This document shows, piece after piece, positions 21,257-32,177 of a DNA stretch of 34,242 bases; position 1 is the first letter of the stretch; each line of letters opens with the position of its first letter. Source of the DNA: Klebsiella terrigena. Its GTDB lineage: Bacteria; Pseudomonadota; Gammaproteobacteria; Enterobacterales; Enterobacteriaceae. The stretch is taken from assembly GCF_006539725.1 (NCBI RefSeq), contig NZ_BJNO01000034.1, positions 1 through 34,242 of the forward strand. The letters are read 5' to 3'. The notes beneath the pieces are model-generated. The model made no database searches. It saw only the letters and a program-made list of their open reading frames with translations, and was not told the DNA's origin. The position numbers and the translations under genes were made by a program.

Positions 21257-22360
21257 GTGAATTTACTCACTGCTATTACTGAATTAATCAGTATTTTCTT
21301 ATTCACTACCCTTTTTATATTTGTGGCTCGCAAGGCGGCAAAAAAGGTTGGGTTAGTCGATAAGCCTAACTATCGAAAACGGCATCAGGGTCTGGTTCCG
21401 TTAGTGGGTGGCATCTCAGTTTACGCGGGTATTTGTTTTACATTTGCGATCGCAGATTATTACATTCCCCATGCTTCGCTGTACCTGGCGTGCGCCGGTA
21501 TTCTGGTACTGGTCGGCGCGCTGGATGACCGATTTGATATCAGCGTAAAAATTCGTGCGGTTATGCAGGCCGCCATTGCCGTCGTCATGATGATGGCAGG
21601 AAACCTGCATCTTAGCAGCCTCGGTTTTATTTTTGGCTCATGGGAGCTGGTGCTCGGCCCCTTCGGTTTCTTCCTCACTCTTTTTGCCGTTTGGGCGGCA
21701 ATTAACGCCTTTAATATGGTTGATGGCATCGACGGCCTGCTCGGCGGTCTGTCATCGGTCTCCTTCGCGGCAACGGGCATCATCCTGTGGTTTGATGGCC
21801 AGTACAGCCTGGCAATGTGGTGTTTTGCGATGATTGCCGCCATTCTGCCCTATATTTTACTTAACCTCGGTGCGCTTGGCCGTCGCTATAAGGTCTTTAT
21901 GGGCGATGCCGGCAGCACCATGATTGGCTTCACCATTATTTGGATCCTGCTGGAAACCACGCAGGGTAAAACGCATCCCATTAGCCCGGTTACCGCGCTG
22001 TGGATTATTGCGATTCCGTTGATGGATATGGTGGCGATTATGTATCGTCGCCTGCGCAAGGGCATGAGTCCGTTCTCTCCGGACCGCCAGCACATTCATC
22101 ATTTGATCATGCGCGCTGGGTTTACTTCCCGGCAGGCATTCGTCCTGATCACGCTGGCCGCCGCTTTACTGGCGCTGGTAGGGGTGGTGGCGGAATATAC
22201 CCGTATCGTTCCTGAATGGGTGATGTTAATACTCTTTTTGTTAGCCTTCTTCCTTTATGGCTACTGCATTAAACGCGCCTGGAAAGTGGCGCGCCTGGTT
22301 AAGCGCATCAGACGCAGAATACGGCGACACAGCAGCAATAATCCAAAATTAACCAAGTAG
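21257..22360 (+). CDS. wecA: UDP-GlcNAc:undecaprenyl-phosphate GlcNAc-1-phosphate transferase
   Basis: WecA makes lipid I (Und-PP-GlcNAc), the first step of ECA and also the start of many O-antigens. It is an inner-membrane protein of about 11 segments. Visible motifs are the catalytic Asp pair D90-D91 in GALDDRFD, NAFNMVDGIDGL, FMGDAGST and the sugar-selecting DRQHIHHLIMRAG. I chose the GTG at 21257 (MNLLTAITELIS, 367 residues), the E. coli length; an in-frame ATG at 21203 would add 18 polar residues. It is the first gene of the wec operon. Confidence 0.97.
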   Translation: MNLLTAITELISIFLFTTLFIFVARKAAKKVGLVDKPNYRKRHQGLVPLVGGISVYAGICFTFAIADYYIPHASLYLACAGILVLVGALDDRFDISVKIRAVMQAAIAVVMMMAGNLHLSSLGFIFGSWELVLGPFGFFLTLFAVWAAINAFNMVDGIDGLLGGLSSVSFAATGIILWFDGQYSLAMWCFAMIAAILPYILLNLGALGRRYKVFMGDAGSTMIGFTIIWILLETTQGKTHPISPVTALWIIAIPLMDMVAIMYRRLRKGMSPFSPDRQHIHHLIMRAGFTSRQAFVLITLAAALLALVGVVAEYTRIVPEWVMLILFLLAFFLYGYCIKRAWKVARLVKRIRRRIRRHSSNNPKLTK

Positions 22361-22373
22361 AACTGGGGACGTG

Positions 22374-23420
22374 ATGACTCAACCATTACCGGGAGCACAA
22401 GCAGTGAACGTTGAGAATGAGCTGGATATTCGCGGGCTGTTTCGCGCCTTATGGGCAGGGAAAATTTGGATAGCAGGGATGGCCGTGCTGTTTGCGCTGA
22501 TCGTACTGGTTTATGCCTTTTTTGCTCGCCAGGAGTGGAGCGCGACGGCAATTACCGACCGGCCAACCGTAAATATGCTGGGCAGCTACTACTCGCAACA
22601 GCAGTTTTTACGCAATCTCGATATCAAAGCCAATCTGGCTTCGGTCGATCAGCCTTCGGCAATGGACGACGCCTATAAAGAGTTCATCATGCAGCAGGGG
22701 TCCTGGGATACCCGGCGTGATTTCTGGCTGCAAACCGACTATTACAAACAGCGCCAGTCGGGTAATTCTCGCGCCGATGCCGCGCTGCTGGACGATCTGA
22801 TTAACAATATCCAGTTTATGCCGGGCGATGCGGTAAAGAATACTAACGATAGCGTCAAGCTGACGGCCGAGACCGCGCCGGATGCCAATAATCTGCTGCG
22901 CCAGTACGTGGCATTTGCCAGCCAGCGCGCGGCGGGCCACCTGAATGACGAGCTCAAGGGCGCCTGGGCGGCACGTACCGTGCAGATGAAAGCGCAGGTT
23001 AAGCGTCAGGAAGAGGTCGCGCGTGAGATTTTCAACCGCCGTACCCACAGCGTGGAGCAGGCGCTGAAAATCGCCCAGCAGCATAATATTTCCCGCAGTG
23101 AGACCGACATTCCTGCCGATCAGCTGCCGGATTCCGAGCTGTTTTTACTCGGCAGGCCGATGCTGCAGGCGCGGTTAGAAAATCTGCAGGCGGTCGGTCC
23201 GGAATACGATCTTGACTATGACCAAAGCCGCGCGATGCTGAATACCCTGAACGTCGGGCCGACATTAGATCCGCGTTTTCAGACTTACCGGTATTTGCGT
23301 ACGCCGGAAGAACCTGTAAAACGCGATAGCCCGCGCCGCGTATTTCTGATGGTGATGTGGGGGATTGTGGGCGCGCTCATCGGCGCAGGCGTGGCGCTAT
23401 CGCGACGTCGTATCCAGTGA
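22374..23420 (+). CDS. wzzE: ECA chain-length regulator WzzE
   Basis: WzzE is a polysaccharide co-polymerase that sets the number of ECA trisaccharide repeats made by WzyE. The 348 residues have the Wzz plan: one membrane segment near 31-51, a long periplasmic coiled domain, and a second membrane segment near 322-342 preceded by the proline-rich motif YLRTPEEPVKRDSPRR. The ATG at 22374 (MTQPLPG) follows GGGG by about six bases; the GTG just before it would add one residue. Its start is 13 bp after the wecA stop. Confidence 0.96.
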   Translation: MTQPLPGAQAVNVENELDIRGLFRALWAGKIWIAGMAVLFALIVLVYAFFARQEWSATAITDRPTVNMLGSYYSQQQFLRNLDIKANLASVDQPSAMDDAYKEFIMQQGSWDTRRDFWLQTDYYKQRQSGNSRADAALLDDLINNIQFMPGDAVKNTNDSVKLTAETAPDANNLLRQYVAFASQRAAGHLNDELKGAWAARTVQMKAQVKRQEEVAREIFNRRTHSVEQALKIAQQHNISRSETDIPADQLPDSELFLLGRPMLQARLENLQAVGPEYDLDYDQSRAMLNTLNVGPTLDPRFQTYRYLRTPEEPVKRDSPRRVFLMVMWGIVGALIGAGVALSRRRIQ

Positions 23421-23476: not shown

Positions 23477-24607
23477 GTGAAAGTACTAACTGTATTTGGC
23501 ACAAGACCCGAAGCCATCAAAATGGCACCGCTGGTTCATGCGCTGGCCAGGGACCCTCATTTTGAGGCAAAAGTGTGCGTAACCGCGCAGCATCGGGAGA
23601 TGCTCGATCAGGTGCTGAAGCTGTTTTCTATTGTTCCGGATTACGACCTGAATATCATGCAGCCGGGTCAGGGCCTGACGGAGATTACCTGCCGCATCCT
23701 TGAAGGGCTGAAGCCGGTTCTGGAGTCGTTTAAGCCTGACGTTGTGCTGGTGCATGGCGATACCACCACCACGATGGCGGCGAGCCTGGCCGCTTTCTAT
23801 CAGCGAATCCCGGTGGGGCACGTTGAGGCGGGACTGCGCACCGGCGATCTCAGTTCGCCGTGGCCGGAAGAGGGTAACCGGACGTTAACCGGGCGGCTGG
23901 CAACCTGGCATTTTGCGCCGACGGAGACCTCGCGGCAGAACCTGCTGCGGGAGAACGTTGCCGATAGCCATATCACGGTCACCGGCAATACGGTTATCGA
24001 TGCGCTGTTCTGGGTTCGCGATCGCGTGCTGGGCGATGAGGCGCTGCGCATCGAGCTGACGCAGCGCTATCCGTTCCTGGCTAACGGAAAGAAGATGATC
24101 CTGGTCACCGGCCACCGTCGCGAAAGCTTCGGCCGCGGGTTTGAGCAGATCTGCCACGCGCTGGCGGAAATTGCAGCCAGCCATCCCGATGTACAAATTG
24201 TCTATCCGGTGCACCTGAACCCAAACGTCAGCGAGCCGGTAAACCGCATTCTTGGTCATATTGATAACGTGATTTTGATCGAACCGCAGGATTACCTGCC
24301 ATTTGTCTGGCTGATGGATCGCGCATGGCTGATCCTCACCGACTCCGGCGGTATTCAGGAAGAAGCCCCTTCGCTGGGCAAACCGGTTCTGGTGATGCGC
24401 GAGATGACGGAACGGCCGGAAGCGGTAGCCGCAGGCACCGTTACGCTGGTCGGTACCGATAGCCAGCGCATCGTCGCGGAAGTCACGAATCTGCTGAACA
24501 ACGATGCCGCATACCAGGCGATGAGCCGGGCGCACAACCCTTACGGCGATGGGCAGGCATGTAGCCGCATTGTGACCGTACTTAAAAATAATCAGGTAAC
24601 GCTATGA
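23477..24607 (+). CDS. wecB: UDP-GlcNAc 2-epimerase (non-hydrolysing)
   Basis: WecB converts UDP-GlcNAc to UDP-ManNAc for the second ECA sugar. The 376 residues form a two-domain GT-B-like fold with the family landmarks [46 protein letters not shown] and [22 protein letters not shown]. The start is GTG at 23477, with GAAGAG upstream, as in E. coli. It ends in a four-base overlap with wecC, so the two enzymes of ManNAcA synthesis are probably translationally coupled. Confidence 0.97.
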
Positions 24608-25866
24608 GTTTTTCTACCATTTCAGTGATTGGCCTTGGGTATATCGGTTTGCCAACCGCTGCCGCGTTCGCCTCCCGGCAAAAGCGGGTGGTGGGCGTTG
24701 ATGTTAATCAGCACGCGGTGGAGACCATTAACCGCGGCGAGATTCATATTGTGGAACCGGATTTGGCCAGCGTGGTTAAGACCGCGGTCGAGCAGGGCTA
24801 TTTAAGCGCCACTACCGTCCCGGTGGAAGCGGACGCCTATCTGATTGCCGTCCCGACGCCGTTTAAGGATCTGCACGAGCCGGATATGGTCTTCGTCGAG
24901 TCGGCGGCAAAATCAATAGCGCCGGTGCTGAAGAAGGGGGCTCTGGTTATCCTTGAGTCCACTTCCCCCGTCGGGGCGACGGAGCTGATGGCGGGCTGGC
25001 TGGCCGAGCTGCGCCCCGATCTGAGCTTCCCGCAGCAGGCAGGCGCAGCGGCGGACGTCAATATCGCCTACTGCCCGGAGCGCGTGCTGCCGGGCCAGGT
25101 GATGGTTGAGCTGATTAAAAACGACCGCGTGATTGGCGGTATGTCCCCGGTCTGTTCTGCCCGCGCCAGCGAGCTGTATAAAATTTTCCTCGAAGGCGAG
25201 TGCGTGGTGACCAACTCCCGCACCGCAGAGATGTGCAAGCTGACCGAAAACAGCTTCCGCGACGTCAATATCGCCTTTGCTAACGAACTGTCGCTGATCT
25301 GCGCCGAGCAGGACATTAACGTCTGGGAGCTGATTCGCCTGGCGAACCGCCATCCGCGCGTCAATATTCTGCAGCCGGGGCCGGGCGTTGGCGGCCACTG
25401 TATCGCGGTCGATCCGTGGTTTATCGTGGCGCAAAATCCGCAGCAGGCGCGGCTGATCCGCACCGCGCGTGAGGTCAACGACCATAAGCCTGAATGGGTT
25501 ATCGAGCAGGTGAAGGCGCGGGTGGCCGAGTGTCTTGCCGCCAGCAACCGACGCGCCAGCGAGCTGAAAATCGCCTGCTTTGGCCTGGCCTTCAAGCCGA
25601 ATATCGACGATCTGCGCGAAAGCCCGGCGATGGCTATCGCCATGCAAATTGCGGCCTGGCACAGCGGCGAAACGCTGGTCGTTGAACCCAATATTCACCA
25701 ACTGCCGAAGAAGCTCGACGGTCTGTGCGCCCTGGCATCGCTGAGCGATGCTCTGGCAAACGCCGATGTGCTGGTGATGCTGGTCGATCACCATGAGTTT
25801 AAAGCGGTAGGCGGCGACAGCGTAACCCAGGCATTTATCGTCGATACCAAAGGGGTATGGCGGTGA
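24604..25866 (+). CDS. wecC: UDP-ManNAc 6-dehydrogenase
   Basis: WecC oxidises UDP-ManNAc twice with NAD+ to UDP-ManNAcA, the donor for WecG. The 420 residues carry the N-terminal NAD motif [10 protein letters not shown] (10-19) and the catalytic cysteine in [30 protein letters not shown] opens the C-terminal UDP-binding part. Its stop codon overlaps a GTG (GTGA) that begins the remnant of rffG. Gene length and start equal the E. coli gene. Confidence 0.97.
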
Positions 25867-25967
25867 GAACGATTCTGGTCACCGGTATGAGCCAGGGCCC
25901 GATCCCTGGCTCCGGCTATGGCCAATACTTACTGGATCTCGTCCGTGTCCGTCCGCGCCAGTATTGA
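25863..25967 (+). pseudogene. In-frame rffG-rffH deletion remnant (34 codons)
   Basis: Where E. coli has complete rffG (dTDP-glucose 4,6-dehydratase, about 355 residues) and rffH (glucose-1-phosphate thymidylyltransferase, about 293), this window has a 34-codon frame. It starts with GTG overlapping the wecC stop. Codons 1-8 read MRTILVTG, the start of RffG. Codons 9-17 read MSQGPIPGS, which I cannot assign. Codons 18-34 read [17 protein letters not shown], the end of RffH. Roughly 1.9 kb is missing, including every catalytic residue of both enzymes. The frame is preserved from the wecC stop to the wecD start, so translation can still run through. Confidence 0.88.
25889..25912. other. Perfect hairpin at the rffGH deletion junction
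   Basis: GAGCCAGGG and CCCTGGCTC form a 9-bp GC-rich stem around CCCGAT. The hairpin coincides with the 9-codon unassigned linker. Imperfect direct repeats flank it: CCGGTATGAGCC (25882-25893) and CCGGCTATGGCC (25912-25923). Confidence 0.75.
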
Positions 25968-26619
25968 ACCCCTGGAGTGGGAAAATCGCTTCTTTGGCGT
26001 TAACAGCGCGATCGTGCGCTTTCGCCACGACGCCCCGCCGCTGACGAACCAGGCGCTGACCGGCTGGTCGCGGCTGCAGGCGAAGATTGCGGCGGACGAT
26101 ACCGAACGGCTGGATGCCTTACAGCAGCTGGGCTTCCAGCTAGTTGAGGGGGAAGTCGATCTGGCGCTGCCGGCCGGGACGGCCGAGGACCTCGGGTGCG
26201 AAATGGCTACCGCCGCTGACATCCCGCGCCTGCGGGAGCTGGCGGCGCAGGCGTTTGCCCTCAGCCGCTTTCGCGCGCCGTGGTATGCCGCTGATGCCAG
26301 CGGCCGTTTCTACGCCCAATGGATTGAAAATGCGGTGCTGGGGACCTTTGATAACCAGTGCCTGATTTTTCGCACCTCCGACGGCGATATCCGCGCTTTT
26401 GTCTCCCTGCGCCAGCTCAACGCTACGGACGCCCGGATCGGCCTGCTGGCCGGTCGCGGCGCCGGCGCTGAGCTGATGCAGGCGGCGCGAAGCTGGGCCG
26501 GATCGCGCGGGCTCTCTACACTGCGGGTGGCGACCCAGATGGGTAATACCGCCGCGCTTAAACGTTATATTCTCAGCGGTGCGAATGTGGAAAACACCGC
26601 GTACTGGTTATACAGGTGA
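25945..26619 (+). CDS. wecD: dTDP-fucosamine acetyltransferase
   Basis: WecD is a GNAT-fold enzyme that acetylates dTDP-4-amino-4,6-dideoxygalactose to dTDP-Fuc4NAc, the third ECA sugar donor. I chose the GTG at 25945 ([14 protein letters not shown], 224 residues), the E. coli length; it overlaps the end of the rffH remnant in another frame, as the E. coli genes appear to do. An in-frame ATG at 25918 would add nine residues encoded within remnant sequence. Conserved stretches include [18 protein letters not shown], and the acetyl-CoA-binding [13 protein letters not shown]. Its substrate depends on RffG/RffH activity that this locus no longer encodes. Confidence 0.93.
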
Positions 26620-26623
26620 CATG

Positions 26624-27754
26624 ATGATTCCATTTAACGCGCCGCCGGTGGTGGGAACCGAGCTTGATTATATGCAGTCTGCGATGGGCAGCGGCAAGCT
26701 GTGCGGCGACGGCGGATTTACCCGCCGCTGCCAGCAGTGGATGGAGCAGCGCTTTGGCACGGTAAAAGCGCTGCTGACCCCGTCCTGTACCGCTTCGCTG
26801 GAGATGGCGGCGCTGCTGCTGGATATCCAGCCGGGCGACGAAGTCATTATGCCGAGCTATACCTTCGTCTCTACCGCCAACGCCTTTGTGCTGCGCGGAG
26901 CCAAAATTGTCTTTGTCGATATCCGCCGCGATACCATGAATATCGACGAAACGCTGATCGAAGCCGCCATCACTGAGAAGACCCGGGCGATTGTGCCGGT
27001 TCACTATGCCGGCGTTGCCTGCGAGATGGACACTATCATGGCCATTGCCAGCAGGCATAACCTGTTCGTGGTGGAGGATGCCGCGCAGGGCGTCATGTCG
27101 ACCTACAAAGGGCGCGCGCTGGGCACTATCGGGCACATCGGCTGCTTTAGCTTCCATGAAACCAAAAACTATACCGCCGGCGGCGAAGGCGGGGCGACGC
27201 TGATCAACGATCGCCAGCTGGTCGAGCGCGCGGAAATCATTCGCGAGAAAGGCACCAACCGCAGCCAGTTCTTCCGCGGTCTGGTGGATAAGTACACCTG
27301 GCGCGATATCGGCTCCAGCTATCTGATGTCAGACCTGCAGGCCGCCTATCTGTGGGCGCAGCTGGAAGCGGCGGAGAAAATTAACCAGCAGCGCCTGACG
27401 CTGTGGCAGAGCTATTACGACGCGCTGCTGCCGCTGGCGCGCGCCGGGCGCATCGAGCTGCCGATTGTCCCTGCCGACTGCGGGCACAACGCGCATATGT
27501 TCTATATCAAGCTGCGGGATATCGACGACCGCAGCAGGCTGATCGCGTGGCTGAAAGAGGCCGAAATTCTCGCCGTCTTCCACTATATCCCGCTGCACAG
27601 CTGCCCGGCAGGGGAGAACTTCGGCGAGTTCCGCGGGGAAGACCGCTTTACCACTCAGGAGAGCGAGCGCCTGCTGCGCCTGCCCCTGTTCTACAATCTG
27701 TCGGCGGTTAACCAGCGGACGGTGATTAACTCGCTGCTGAGCTATTTCTCCTGA
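26624..27754 (+). CDS. wecE: dTDP-4-amino-4,6-dideoxygalactose transaminase
   Basis: WecE is a PLP-dependent sugar aminotransferase of the DegT/DnrJ/EryC1 family. It converts dTDP-4-keto-6-deoxyglucose to dTDP-4-amino-4,6-dideoxygalactose using glutamate. I chose the second of two adjacent ATGs, at 26624 (MIPFNAPPVVGTELDY, 376 residues). The PLP lysine is K181 in HETKNYTAGGEGG, and EDAAQG near 151 is the usual cofactor-binding aspartate motif. All key residues are intact, so the enzyme should work if supplied with keto sugar. It starts five bases after the wecD stop. Confidence 0.97.
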   Translation: MIPFNAPPVVGTELDYMQSAMGSGKLCGDGGFTRRCQQWMEQRFGTVKALLTPSCTASLEMAALLLDIQPGDEVIMPSYTFVSTANAFVLRGAKIVFVDIRRDTMNIDETLIEAAITEKTRAIVPVHYAGVACEMDTIMAIASRHNLFVVEDAAQGVMSTYKGRALGTIGHIGCFSFHETKNYTAGGEGGATLINDRQLVERAEIIREKGTNRSQFFRGLVDKYTWRDIGSSYLMSDLQAAYLWAQLEAAEKINQQRLTLWQSYYDALLPLARAGRIELPIVPADCGHNAHMFYIKLRDIDDRSRLIAWLKEAEILAVFHYIPLHSCPAGENFGEFRGEDRFTTQESERLLRLPLFYNLSAVNQRTVINSLLSYFS

Positions 27755-27755
27755 T

Positions 27756-29006
27756 ATGTCGTTGGCAAAAGCTTCGCTGTGGACCGCGGCGTCTACCCTG
27801 GTCAAAATCGGCGTCGGACTGCTGGTGGTTAAGCTGCTGGCCGTCTCCTTCGGGCCGGCAGGCGTAGGCCAGGCCGGTAACTTTCGCCAGCTGGTCACCG
27901 TGCTTGGCGTCCTCGCCGGGGCCGGTATTTTCAACGGCGTAACCAAGCTGGTTGCGCAGCATTATGACGATCGCCAGCAGTTGGATAAGGTAGTCGGCAC
28001 CTCCTCTTCGATGGTGCTGGGCTTCTCGACGTTGTTGGCGATTATCTTTTTACTCGCCGCGGCGCCGATTAGCCAGGGGCTGTTTGGTCATACGCAGTAC
28101 CAGGGGCTGGTGCGGCTGGTAGCGCTGGTGCAGATGGGCATTGCCTGGGCTAACTTCCTGCTGGCGCTGATAAAAGGCTTCCGCGATGCGGCGGGGAACG
28201 CGGTATCGCTGATTGCCGGTAGCCTGATTGGCGTGGTGGCATACTATGCCTGTTACCATTTCGGCGGCTATCAGGGCGCGCTGCTAGGGCTGGCGCTGGT
28301 TCCCGCGCTGGTGGTGGTTCCGGCGGCTATCGTGTTGTGGCGGCGGGGGAGTATCCCGCTTAGCGCGCTGCGCCCGCGCTGGGATAACGGCTTCGCCGGG
28401 CAGCTGTCCAAGTTTACCCTGATGGCGCTGATTACCTCGGTAACGCTGCCGGTCGCTTACGTGATGATGCGTAACCTGCTGGCGGAGCATTACGGCTGGG
28501 AGGCGGTGGGGATCTGGCAGGGGGTGAGCAGTATTTCCGACGCCTATCTGCAGTTCATCACCGCGTCGTTCAGCGTCTATTTGCTTCCTACGCTCTCCCG
28601 GCTAACCGCCAAAGCGGATATTACCCGCGAGATCGGCAAATCGCTAAAATTTGTCCTGCCGGCGGTGGCGGCGGCAAGCCTGACCGTCTGGCTACTGCGC
28701 GACTTTGCCATCTGGCTGCTGTTTTCCGAACGCTTCACGGCGATGCGTGACCTGTTTGCCTGGCAGCTGGTGGGTGACGTCCTTAAGGTCGGGGCCTATG
28801 TCTATGGCTACCTGGTGATCGCCAAAGCGTCACTGCGTTTTTATATTCTGACGGAAATCAGCCAGTTCACGCTGTTGACCGCCTTCTCACACTGGCTTAT
28901 CCCGGCGCACGGCGCAGTTGGCGCAGCGCAGGCGTATATGGCTACGTATATTGTTTATTTCGCCCTTTGTAGCGGCGTGTTTTTACTTTGGCGTAAACGG
29001 GCATGA
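27756..29006 (+). CDS. wzxE: ECA lipid III flippase
   Basis: WzxE moves undecaprenyl-linked ECA trisaccharide across the inner membrane. The 416 residues are a polytopic MOP-superfamily protein with about 12 predicted hydrophobic segments. Early landmarks are [16 protein letters not shown] and a [11 protein letters not shown] loop; [15 protein letters not shown] marks the second half. The ATG begins one base after the wecE stop, and the gene ends in a four-base overlap with wecF. Length equals the E. coli protein. Confidence 0.96.
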
Positions 29007-30082
29007 CAGCACTGATACACGTACTGGGATCGGATATTCCGCACCACAACCAGACCGTTCTGCGGTTCTTTAATGACGAGCTGGCCGCGGGTGACGCGCG
29101 GGCGCGCACGTTTATGGTGGTCGGTGACGCAGCGGGCGTCCGCGAGGCGTATCCGGCGCTATCCATCACCTGCTATCCCGGAAAGAAATCGCTGGCGCAG
29201 GCGGTCATCTCCGCGGCGAAAGCGGATCGGCGCCAGCGCTTTTTCTTCCACGGTCAGTTCAATACCGGCCTGTGGCTGGCGCTGCTCGGCGGCGGAATTC
29301 GCCCTTCCCAGTTCAACTGGCATATCTGGGGCGCCGATCTGTATGAGAATTCGTCCAGCCTGAAGTTCCGGCTTTTCTATCCGCTGCGCCGTATGGCGCA
29401 GGGGCGCGTGGGGCGCGTTTTCGCCACCCGCGGCGACCTGAGCTGGTTTGCCCGCCGCCACCCAAAGGTGGCGGGAGAGCTGCTCTATTTCCCGACCCGG
29501 ATGGATCCGGCGCTGAATACGCTGGCGGATAGCGCCCCGCGCACCGACGCGCTGACCATTCTGGTGGGCAACTCCGGCGATCGCAGCAATGAACATATTG
29601 CGGCGCTGCGCGCTATTCATCAGCAGTTTGGCGATACGGTAAACGTGATCGTCCCGATGGGCTATCCGGCCAACAATGCGGAATATATTAACGAAGTGCG
29701 CGCGGCGGGCGCGGCGTTGTTTAGCGCCGGGAATTTACAGGTGCTCAGCGACAGGCTGGAATTCAACGATTACCTGGCGCTGCTGCGCCGCTGCGATCTG
29801 GGCTATTTCCTCTTTGCCCGCCAGCAGGGGATCGGTACGCTGTGCCTGCTGATTCAGGCGGGTATTCCCTGCGTACTGAATCGGGAGAATCCGTTCTGGC
29901 AGGATATGACGGAGCAGAATATTCCGGTACTGTTTACCGGCGATACCCTGGATGTTGCCGTGGTACGCGAGGCCCAACGTCAGCTGGCGAACGTTGATAA
30001 GAACCAGATTGCTTTCTTCCGGCCAAACTACCTGACGGGCTGGCAGCGGGCATTGCAGATTGCCTCGGGGGTGAGCGCATGA
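29003..30082 (+). CDS. wecF: Fuc4NAc transferase (lipid III synthase)
   Basis: WecF adds Fuc4NAc from dTDP-Fuc4NAc to lipid II to complete the ECA trisaccharide. The 359-residue cytoplasmic or membrane-associated protein has the GT56 family start [20 protein letters not shown] and conserved stretches [12 protein letters not shown] and [20 protein letters not shown]. It overlaps wzxE and wzyE by four bases at each end (ATGA), implying coupled translation of flippase, transferase and polymerase. It is intact, so selection to use Fuc4NAc seems to continue despite the lost rffGH. Confidence 0.96.
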
Positions 30083-31425
30083 CATTAATGCAATTTAGCG
30101 GGCTGCTGGTGGTCTGGCTGCTGTCGTCGCTGTTTATTGCCACCGCCACGTATTTTGAGTTTCGCCGGGTGCGCTTTAACTTCAACGTCTTCTTTTCGCT
30201 GCTGTTTCTGCTGACTTTCTTCTTCGGCTTCCCGCTGACCAGCATTCTGGTCTTCCGCTTTGACGTCAGCGTTGCGCCGCCGGAAGTGCTGCTGGAAACC
30301 CTGCTGGTGTCGGTGTGCTTTTACGCGGTGTATTACGTCACCTACAAAACGCGGCTGCGTTCGCACGCTCACGATAGCCAGCGCCGCCCGCTGTTCACCA
30401 TGAACCGCGTGGAGACCCATCTGGCATGGATGATTCTGCTGGCCGTTGCGCTGCTGTGCGTCGGCATTTTCTTTGCCCACAACGGATTCCTGCTGTTCAG
30501 GCTCAACTCCTATAGCCAGATCTTCTCCAGCGAAGTGTCCGGCGTGGCGCTGAAGCGCTTTTTCTATTTCTTTATTCCGGCGATGCTGGTGGTCTACTTC
30601 CTGCGCCAGGACTATAAGGCGTGGATTTTCTTTCTTATCAGCACCACCGCCTTTGGCCTGCTGACCTACGCTATCGTCGGCGGCACGCGGGCGAACATCA
30701 TTATCGCCTTCGCCATCTTCCTGTTTATCGGCATTATTCGCGGCTGGATAAGCCTGTGGATGCTGGCTGCGGCCGGCGTGCTGGGTATTGTCGGTATGTT
30801 CTGGCTGGCCCTGAAGCGCTACGGGATGAACGTCAGCGGCGATGAGGCGTTTTATACCTTCCTGTACCTGACCCGCGATACCTTCTCGCCGTGGGAGAAC
30901 CTGGCGCTGCTGCTGCAGAACTACGATAAGATAGCGTTCCAGGGGCTGGCGCCGATGATCAGGGATTTCTACGTCTTTATCCCCAGCTGGATGTGGCACG
31001 GCCGACCGTCGATGGTCCTCAATACTGCCAACTACTTCACCTGGGAAGTGCTGAATAATCACTCCGGGCTGGCCATCTCCCCAACGCTGATTGGTTCGCT
31101 GGTGGTGATGGGCGGGGTGTGGTTTGTTCCGCTGGGGGCGGTCGCGGTCGGGCTGATTATTAAGTGGTTTGACTGGCTGTATGAGCTTGGCAACCGGGAG
31201 AGCAACCGCTACAAGGCGGCCATTCTGCATAGTTTCTGTTTTGGCGCTATCTTCAATATGATCGTGCTGGCACGCGAAGGGCTGGACTCTTTCGGCTCTC
31301 GCGTGGTGTTTTTCCTCGTGATCTTTGGTATCTGCCTGCTGGCGGCGAAGTTGCTGTACTGGTTCCTGGATAGCGTAGGACTGATTCATAAGCGGACCAA
31401 ACCGCTTTCGCAACCTCAGGTCTGA
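30079..31425 (+). CDS. wzyE: ECA polymerase
   Basis: WzyE joins ECA trisaccharide units in the periplasm, with WzzE setting the length. The 448-residue protein is highly hydrophobic with about 11 predicted membrane segments and a periplasmic loop containing [19 protein letters not shown]. It begins [17 protein letters not shown]. It is two residues shorter than the E. coli form as I remember it. The start overlaps wecF by four bases. A long open frame on the opposite strand is a by-product of the composition of this gene. Confidence 0.95.
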
Positions 31426-31436
31426 TAAGGATTAAC

Positions 31437-32177
31437 ATGTCTGAGAGTACTTCCGCGCCGTTGTATCTGCTGAGAGGTTTACAGCTCATCGGGTGGCGCG
31501 ACATGCAGCACGCACTGGATTTTCTCTATGCTGACGGCGCAATTCGTCAGGGTACGCTGGTGGCTATCAACGCCGAAAAGATGCTGGCAGTCGAGGACGA
31601 TCCTGAGGTTCGGGCGCTGATTGAAGCGGCCGAATTTAAATATGCCGACGGTATTAGCGTGGTGCGTTCATTACGTAAAAAATATCCTCAGGCCCAGGTA
31701 TCGCGCGTGGCGGGGGCCGACCTGTGGGAGGCCCTGATGGCGCGCGCCGGAGCCCAGGGCACGCCGGTCTTTCTGATCGGCGGCAAGCCGGAGGTGCTGG
31801 CCCAGACCTGTACGCAGCTGCGCCAGCGCTGGAACGTTAACATCGTCGGCAGCCAGGACGGCTATTTCTCCGCCGACCACCGTCAGGCGCTGTTTGAGCG
31901 CGTCCGCGACAGCGGGGCCAGGATTGTCACCGTGGCGATGGGTTCACCGCGCCAGGAGATCCTGATGCGCGACTGTCGGCTGGTCTATCCGCAGGCGCTC
32001 TATATGGGCGTGGGTGGCACCTACGACGTATTTACCGGCCACGTTCACCGGGCGCCCAGGTTCTGGCAGAACATGGGGCTGGAGTGGTTCTATCGTTTGA
32101 TATCACAGCCCAGCCGGATTAAAAGACAGATCAGGCTGCTGCGATATTTACGTTGGTATTATACCGGCCAGCTCTAA
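31437..32177 (+). CDS. wecG: UDP-ManNAcA transferase (lipid II synthase)
   Basis: WecG transfers ManNAcA from UDP-ManNAcA to Und-PP-GlcNAc, the second ECA step. The 246-residue protein is a GT26 (TagA/WecG) enzyme. It shows the family motifs NAEKMLA (about 40-46), [34 protein letters not shown] and the [13 protein letters not shown] core. Arginine- and tryptophan-rich residues at the C-terminus ([14 protein letters not shown] and [10 protein letters not shown]) probably anchor it to the membrane. It is last in the operon by gene order and 11 bp after wzyE. Confidence 0.96.

Follow-up and report, generated by a model that had tools for sequence, protein, structure and literature searches.

RffG and RffH, which are encoded in the wec operon for the enterobacterial common antigen (ECA), are reportedly partly redundant with RmlB and RmlA, as Marolda and Valvano are said to have described in 1995. 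The accessible parts of two reviews state the same partial redundancy, and they give the other genes of the standard wec operon in the order found in the Klebsiella terrigena DNA analysed here, a stretch of 34,242 nucleotides hereafter called the window (PMC7439462, PMC12212991). The operon has also been described, in the available text of another paper, as a 12-gene locus (PMC12607656). Unlike the window, the standard operon carries both rffG and rffH, with the start of wecD buried in full-length rffH. According to the accessible part of a Salmonella study, it is the double deletion of rfbB and rffG, and neither single deletion, that makes cells round and colonies small; the double mutant is also hypersensitive to bile (PMC12136496).

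The closest described case is the ECA1 cluster of Cronobacter: the available part of a 2015 report gives rffG and rmlA2 as absent from all C. sakazakii strains of that study and from one C. malonaticus strain (PMC4599207). As in the window, both genes are naturally absent from an otherwise present wec operon; unlike the window, the locus belongs to a different genus, and the same part of the report mentions neither a remnant frame nor a substitute rmlBA (PMC4599207). Natural absence of the two genes is thus already known from Cronobacter. In the open-access literature, covered by titles and abstract openings and with most subscription papers outside this scope, we found no report of a reciprocity between rffGH and rmlBA across genera or of a remnant frame; as far as found, the reciprocity and the bridge discussed below are unreported.

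The wec operon of the window and its rffGH remnant

The ECA genes of the window and the parts of the wecC-wecD junction are as follows, the names wecA, wzzE and wecB being taken from family knowledge and homology within the genus.

21257-22360, + strand: wecA, upstream ECA gene, open
22374-23420, + strand: wzzE, upstream ECA gene, open
23477-24607, + strand: wecB, upstream ECA gene, open
24604-25866, + strand: wecC, UDP-ManNAc dehydrogenase, complete; its TGA (25864-25866) overlaps the next GTG
25863-25967, + strand: rffG'-'rffH remnant mini-ORF, 34 codons
25863-25885, + strand: what is left of the rffG start (MRTILVTG), with 1-2 differences to the 11 intact genomes of the genus within the first 24 bases
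25886-25912, + strand: middle segment of 27 nt (MSQGPIPGS), for which an origin in rffGH is unsupported
25914-25967, + strand: remnant of the rffH 3' end, 17 residues and then the stop; 3 base differences from the rffH end of R. ornithinolytica
25945-26619, + strand: wecD, probably starting at GTG 25945 within the remnant, with an in-frame ATG at 25918 as the alternative
26624-27754, + strand: wecE, downstream ECA gene, open
27756-29006, + strand: wzxE, downstream ECA gene, open
29003-30082, + strand: wecF, downstream ECA gene, open
30079-31425, + strand: wzyE, downstream ECA gene, open
31437-32177, + strand: wecG, downstream ECA gene, open

All ECA genes other than rffGH are present and open, without internal stops, and wecC shares 91-98% amino acid identity with its counterparts in the eight other rffGH-less genomes of the genus. 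At the junction, the tetranucleotide GTGA (25863-25866) joins the wecC stop to a GTG codon (25863-25865), from which the frame runs open through 34 codons to a TGA at 25965-25967. A sequence-only reading of this DNA had described such a frame, with an RffG-like start and an RffH-like end, and the comparison with close relatives that it called for bears this out. The 11 intact genomes of the genus share this GTGA overlap, which there begins a full rffG of 355 codons (V[RS]T[IV]LVTGGAGFIG), and the 3' ends of their full rffH genes match the remnant tail. When compared with intact R. ornithinolytica (G009), the window remnant differs at 2 of 24 bases at one end and 3 of 48 at the other, a likeness greater than chance would give, and the peptide encoded by its rffH-derived tail is identical.

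The gap between the two flanking genes, counted from the final codon of wecC up to the conserved wecD codons for Ile-Glu, measures 99 nt in the window versus 1960-1962 nt in the 11 intact genomes; a net length of about 1.86 kb is therefore missing, and the remaining frame bridges wecC and wecD, in agreement with the in-frame deletion of both enzymes that had been proposed. Among all 20 genomes of the genus, nine have a short gap and no rffGH, and 11 a long gap with rffGH. The nine gaps measure 99 nt in seven genomes and 48 and 60 nt in the other two, with a difference of 12 nt, a multiple of three, between G001 and G002. The sequence-only reading had asked whether the junction occurs in independent genomes of the species; across the genus, eight further genomes are without rffGH at this position, and six of these share the gap length of the window. 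The mini-ORF likewise has 34 codons in six of the eight and is 17 and 21 codons long in the remaining two.

In the window, the 27-nt middle segment of the remnant shows no traceable match to rffG or rffH, 101 of 200 shuffled sequences scoring as well. The lowest values elsewhere were obtained for Klebsiella michiganensis DSM 25444 (G008, 8/200) and G012 (12/200) and are not taken as proof; in this test, the G007 piece was one base too long. The same segment of the window is identical at 22 of 27 bases to that of Enterobacter sp. 10-1 (G015), at 15 to that of Raoultella sp. BIGb0138 (G016) and at 13 to that of G012.

rmlB and rmlA genes at other loci

A WecD scan of a genome collection provided the best 80 of 174 relatives; after ten that duplicated genomes of the genus were dropped, the genus and these relatives together made up 90 non-duplicate genomes, of which 44 lack rffGH, 44 carry both genes and two, both Kluyvera, carry rffG without rffH. 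RmlB-type proteins were detected with TIGR01181 and RmlA-type proteins with TIGR01207 at E <= 1e-60, both being sought in the genomes of the genus and in the rffGH-less genomes outside it, and the 33 rffGH-bearing genomes outside the genus being searched for rmlB alone. Within the genus, each of the 11 intact genomes has exactly one rmlB-type and one rmlA-type gene, both in the wec operon, and all nine rffGH-less genomes have rmlB and rmlA elsewhere. Outside the genus, both genes are found elsewhere in 35 of 35 rffGH-less genomes, and a second rmlB in 6 of 33 intact ones. Overall, rmlB and rmlA occur elsewhere in 44/44 rffGH-less genomes versus a second rmlB in 6/44 rffGH-bearing genomes (Fisher p 1.2e-18, kinship disregarded). 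With correction for kinship, applied to 88 of the 90 rows with the two Kluyvera left out, 9-13 of 13 trait pairs agree and none is opposite (median p 0.000977). Since all 44 rffGH-less genomes carry rmlB and rmlA elsewhere, rffGH seem dispensable where another locus can make dTDP-4-keto-6-deoxyglucose. The sequence-only reading was right about the loss of both enzymes and missed its recurrence, these genes elsewhere and the wecD start inside the remnant.

In the genome of the window (G000), the only rmlB- and rmlA-type genes at E <= 1e-60 lie on contig C3, in two copies each; none is at wec, and no copy of rffGH was found elsewhere at that cut-off. In the stretch C3 302673-314065 (L130), one rmlB/rmlA pair, accompanied by rmlD, is situated between a wcaJ-type gene and gnd, and the second rmlB and rmlA lie past ugd. 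Such surroundings are usual for a capsule/O-antigen region, and the locus looks like one. A relocation of rffGH to this kind of locus is disfavoured: the 11 wec copies form a single clade in both the RffG and the RffH tree, with no copy from another locus inside, so that replacement fits better. The other-locus copies of the nine rffGH-less genomes of the genus share 73-81% (RffG-like) and 72-75% (RffH-like) identity with the K. pneumoniae proteins.

One possible exception is a Kluyvera genome without rffH (genomosp. 3, G020; L061 and L240), whose only rmlA match falls below the cut-off and is frameshifted. We set it aside as a counter-example because wecC, also frameshifted, and other nearby ECA frames look broken too; the assembly appears indel-rich, which is the probable explanation, a decayed ECA pathway being the other. 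Kluyvera genomosp. 1 (G024, L070), with rffG present, rffH absent and a full rmlA elsewhere, is a half-way state of the loss.

Probable start of wecD and proposed translation across the remnant

The probable start codon of wecD, GTG at 25945, lies within the remnant frame and 20 bases before its stop, the arrangement of the intact relatives; in an annotated E. coli genome, wecD (rffC) likewise starts inside the end of rffH (rfbA). The codon at this position is GTG in 45 of the 46 rffG-keeping genomes (43/44 with both genes and both Kluyvera). As this GTG is buried in the rffH tail and no clear Shine-Dalgarno sequence is seen by eye, wecD probably depends on upstream translation. In translationally coupled overlapping genes, the stop of one gene overlaps the start of the next, whose use is thought to depend on translation of the first. 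The window junction has the same stop-start overlap; unlike in the usual coupled genes, the coupler here would be the degenerate leftover of two genes lost by deletion.

We propose that rffGH were lost by deletion, that rmlBA elsewhere substitutes for them and that the remnant is a translational bridge, a reading to which we give a probability of roughly 0.7. The deletion would have taken rffG and rffH out of the wec operon, and an rmlB-rmlA pair elsewhere, as the gene pattern described above indicates, would supply dTDP-4-keto-6-deoxyglucose to WecE and WecD. What the deletion would have kept is present in the window: the rffG start codon overlapping the wecC stop, and the rffH tail with the wecD start. 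A ribosome ending wecC could then restart on the overlapping GTG, translate the 34 codons, pass over the buried wecD start and terminate 20 bases beyond, as a ribosome translating rffH would have done before. The remnant would act through its translation and not as a functional peptide, and the wecD start, freed from RffH coding, may have become ATG in several lineages, though not in the genome of the window.

The NTGA overlap at the wecC stop is kept in 28 of the 44 rffGH-less genomes. In 18 of them it leads directly into wecD. The other ten, nine from the genus plus Pseudocitrobacter faecalis, have an intervening remnant of 17-34 codons, open as far as the old rffH stop, where it ends; no broken frame was seen among the 28. 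Each of the ten remnants hence has a start overlapping the upstream stop and a frame open to the downstream start, as in coupled junctions, and this fits selection for continued translation towards wecD. The other 16 comprise two genomes with TGATG leading into wecD, 13 that lack an overlapping start and one, L128, with a two-codon frame, so that 14 of the 44 have another arrangement, with no overlapping frame into wecD, which speaks against the bridge. ATG stands at the wecD start in 7 of the 10 remnant genomes versus 1 of the 46 rffG-keeping ones (Fisher p 3.9e-6, uncorrected for kinship), the genome of the window, G015 and G016 having kept GTG. On a simple reading this would be a release from the coding overlap, because where rffH is present a substitution at that base would also change one of the codons for the RffH tail.

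The bridge has to be weighed against plain redundancy loss, in which the deletion was in frame by accident, the frame survives by drift and wecD initiates without translation of wecC. Indeed, rmlBA elsewhere already explains the loss, and GTG is kept in 3 of the 10 remnants. Moreover, stop avoidance alone is weak evidence: for the seven 99-nt remnants, neutral simulation gave P 0.06-0.21, depending on the starting sequence, for the absence of a stop in the other six, and the independent in-frame origins are few, each with a one-in-three chance of keeping the frame. The frame evidence for a bridge is, by itself, moderate, and the selection that the sequence-only reading had drawn from the preserved frame fits the ten remnants open to the old rffH stop. 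However, accident and drift sit poorly with 28 of 28 NTGA starts reading into or across the wecD start, with a stop shared by all ten remnants and with the G001/G002 length difference in whole codons; we regard plain loss as unlikely.

That the 34-residue peptide is itself functional is very improbable. Its conserved ends in the window and a tail peptide the same as in R. ornithinolytica speak for it, but the ten remnant peptides diverge widely and have 17, 19, 21 or 34 codons, the linkers of the seven 99-nt genomes lie 0.09-0.60 apart over 78 nt, and the amino acid conservation across species expected of a small protein is absent. Selection on a conserved RNA hairpin in the linker, suggested by inverted repeats visible to the eye in four of the linkers (window, G016, G008, P. 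faecalis), is hardly credible and was rejected, the mean folding z of ten linkers (-0.75) being close to that of 72 control windows of wecC (-0.66).

Recurrence of the loss and history of the alleles

On a tree of five ECA proteins from the 90 genomes, at least 17 changes of rffGH state are needed, as compared with a minimum of 24 and a mean of 30 in 300 label shuffles; if regain is forbidden, the same tree needs 22 losses. With 9 of 20 genomes of the genus and 44 of 90 non-duplicate genomes devoid of rffGH, the loss is natural and recurrent, not an artefact. The engineered deletion or assembly error that the sequence-only reading had kept in play, which the short junction as such could suggest before relatives were compared, has a negligible chance in view of related species whose genomes, each assembled separately, show the same junction or a similar one, and of the lack of another rffGH copy in the genome of the window.

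The loss is also seen in E. coli: in 115 of 5426 genomes, a single place covers 80% or more of the deletion-junction query. In strain 405 (O102 genes, NZ_CM132945.1), the one such strain in which the O-locus was read, wecC is directly followed by wecD, as in the window, and rfbBDAC lies in the O-antigen locus; unlike in the window, the gap is 61 nt, wecD has an ATG start of its own, and no start codon overlaps the stop of wecC. Its wecC-wecD spacer (L219, 3336-3377) is similar by eye to the spacers of further Escherichia species (L063, L075, L076), which suggests a shared old deletion allele.

In a species tree built from rpoB and gyrB, the rffGH-less G000, G015, G007, G016, G003 and G012 fall in a Raoultella-like clade together with intact G009; G008 stands among the intact relatives of K. 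oxytoca (G010), and G001 and G002 are paired beside K. pneumoniae (G013) and its intact relatives. At the operon end, wecG of G003 (L202) is closest to those of G001 and G002 (88%) and not to those of its Raoultella-like neighbours, suggesting recombination there.

The flanking genes of G008 and G012 are closest to those of intact K. grimontii (G004) and G009, respectively. Their remnant ends differ from the same relatives at 27 of 72 bases (G008 versus G004; flanking 4-fold sites 0.139, p 5e-7) and 22 of 72 bases (G012 versus G009; 0.102, p 1.7e-6). In two pairs of rffGH-less genomes, the linker and 4-fold divergences are about equal: 0.09 versus 0.150 for G003-G012 and 0.15 versus 0.131 for G000-G015. 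These sequence distances suggest that the deletion alleles are older than those species pairs and were moved by recombination; repeated independent deletions with fast linker drift are a possible alternative. In the window, only 5 of 72 bases of the remnant ends differ from G009, with a 4-fold value of 0.343. This likeness to intact rffGH goes far beyond the prediction from 4-fold sites, which is not the case for the ends in G016, G003, G012, G007 and G008. A mere bridge does not explain this conservation, which counts against it and also complicates any simple history of the alleles.

More tentatively, rffGH presence and absence could be two old alleles that Enterobacteriaceae exchange horizontally, coupled to what the variable capsule/O-antigen locus contains, such that one source of dTDP-4-keto-6-deoxyglucose is always kept, rffGH being lost when rmlBA arrives and regainable when rmlBA is lost, with the remnant retained as a bridge. 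R. ornithinolytica would then be a regain. Against this speaks the missing donor: among the other equal-length loci compared, none was found for its rffGH, the best reaching 82.9% (rffG) and 81.6% (rffH), and the genes may have been retained vertically.

Implications

The counts suggest that two genes of the ECA operon are optional and that their absence is linked to rmlBA at another locus, which in the cases inspected, the genome of the window and one E. coli strain, is in a capsule/O-antigen region. If this is true, many species depend for their ECA on enzymes encoded at a variable locus, and switching serotype could break ECA synthesis or favour the regain of rffGH. The gene-loss scars that share the same start-stop overlap form a natural series for testing translational coupling after gene loss.
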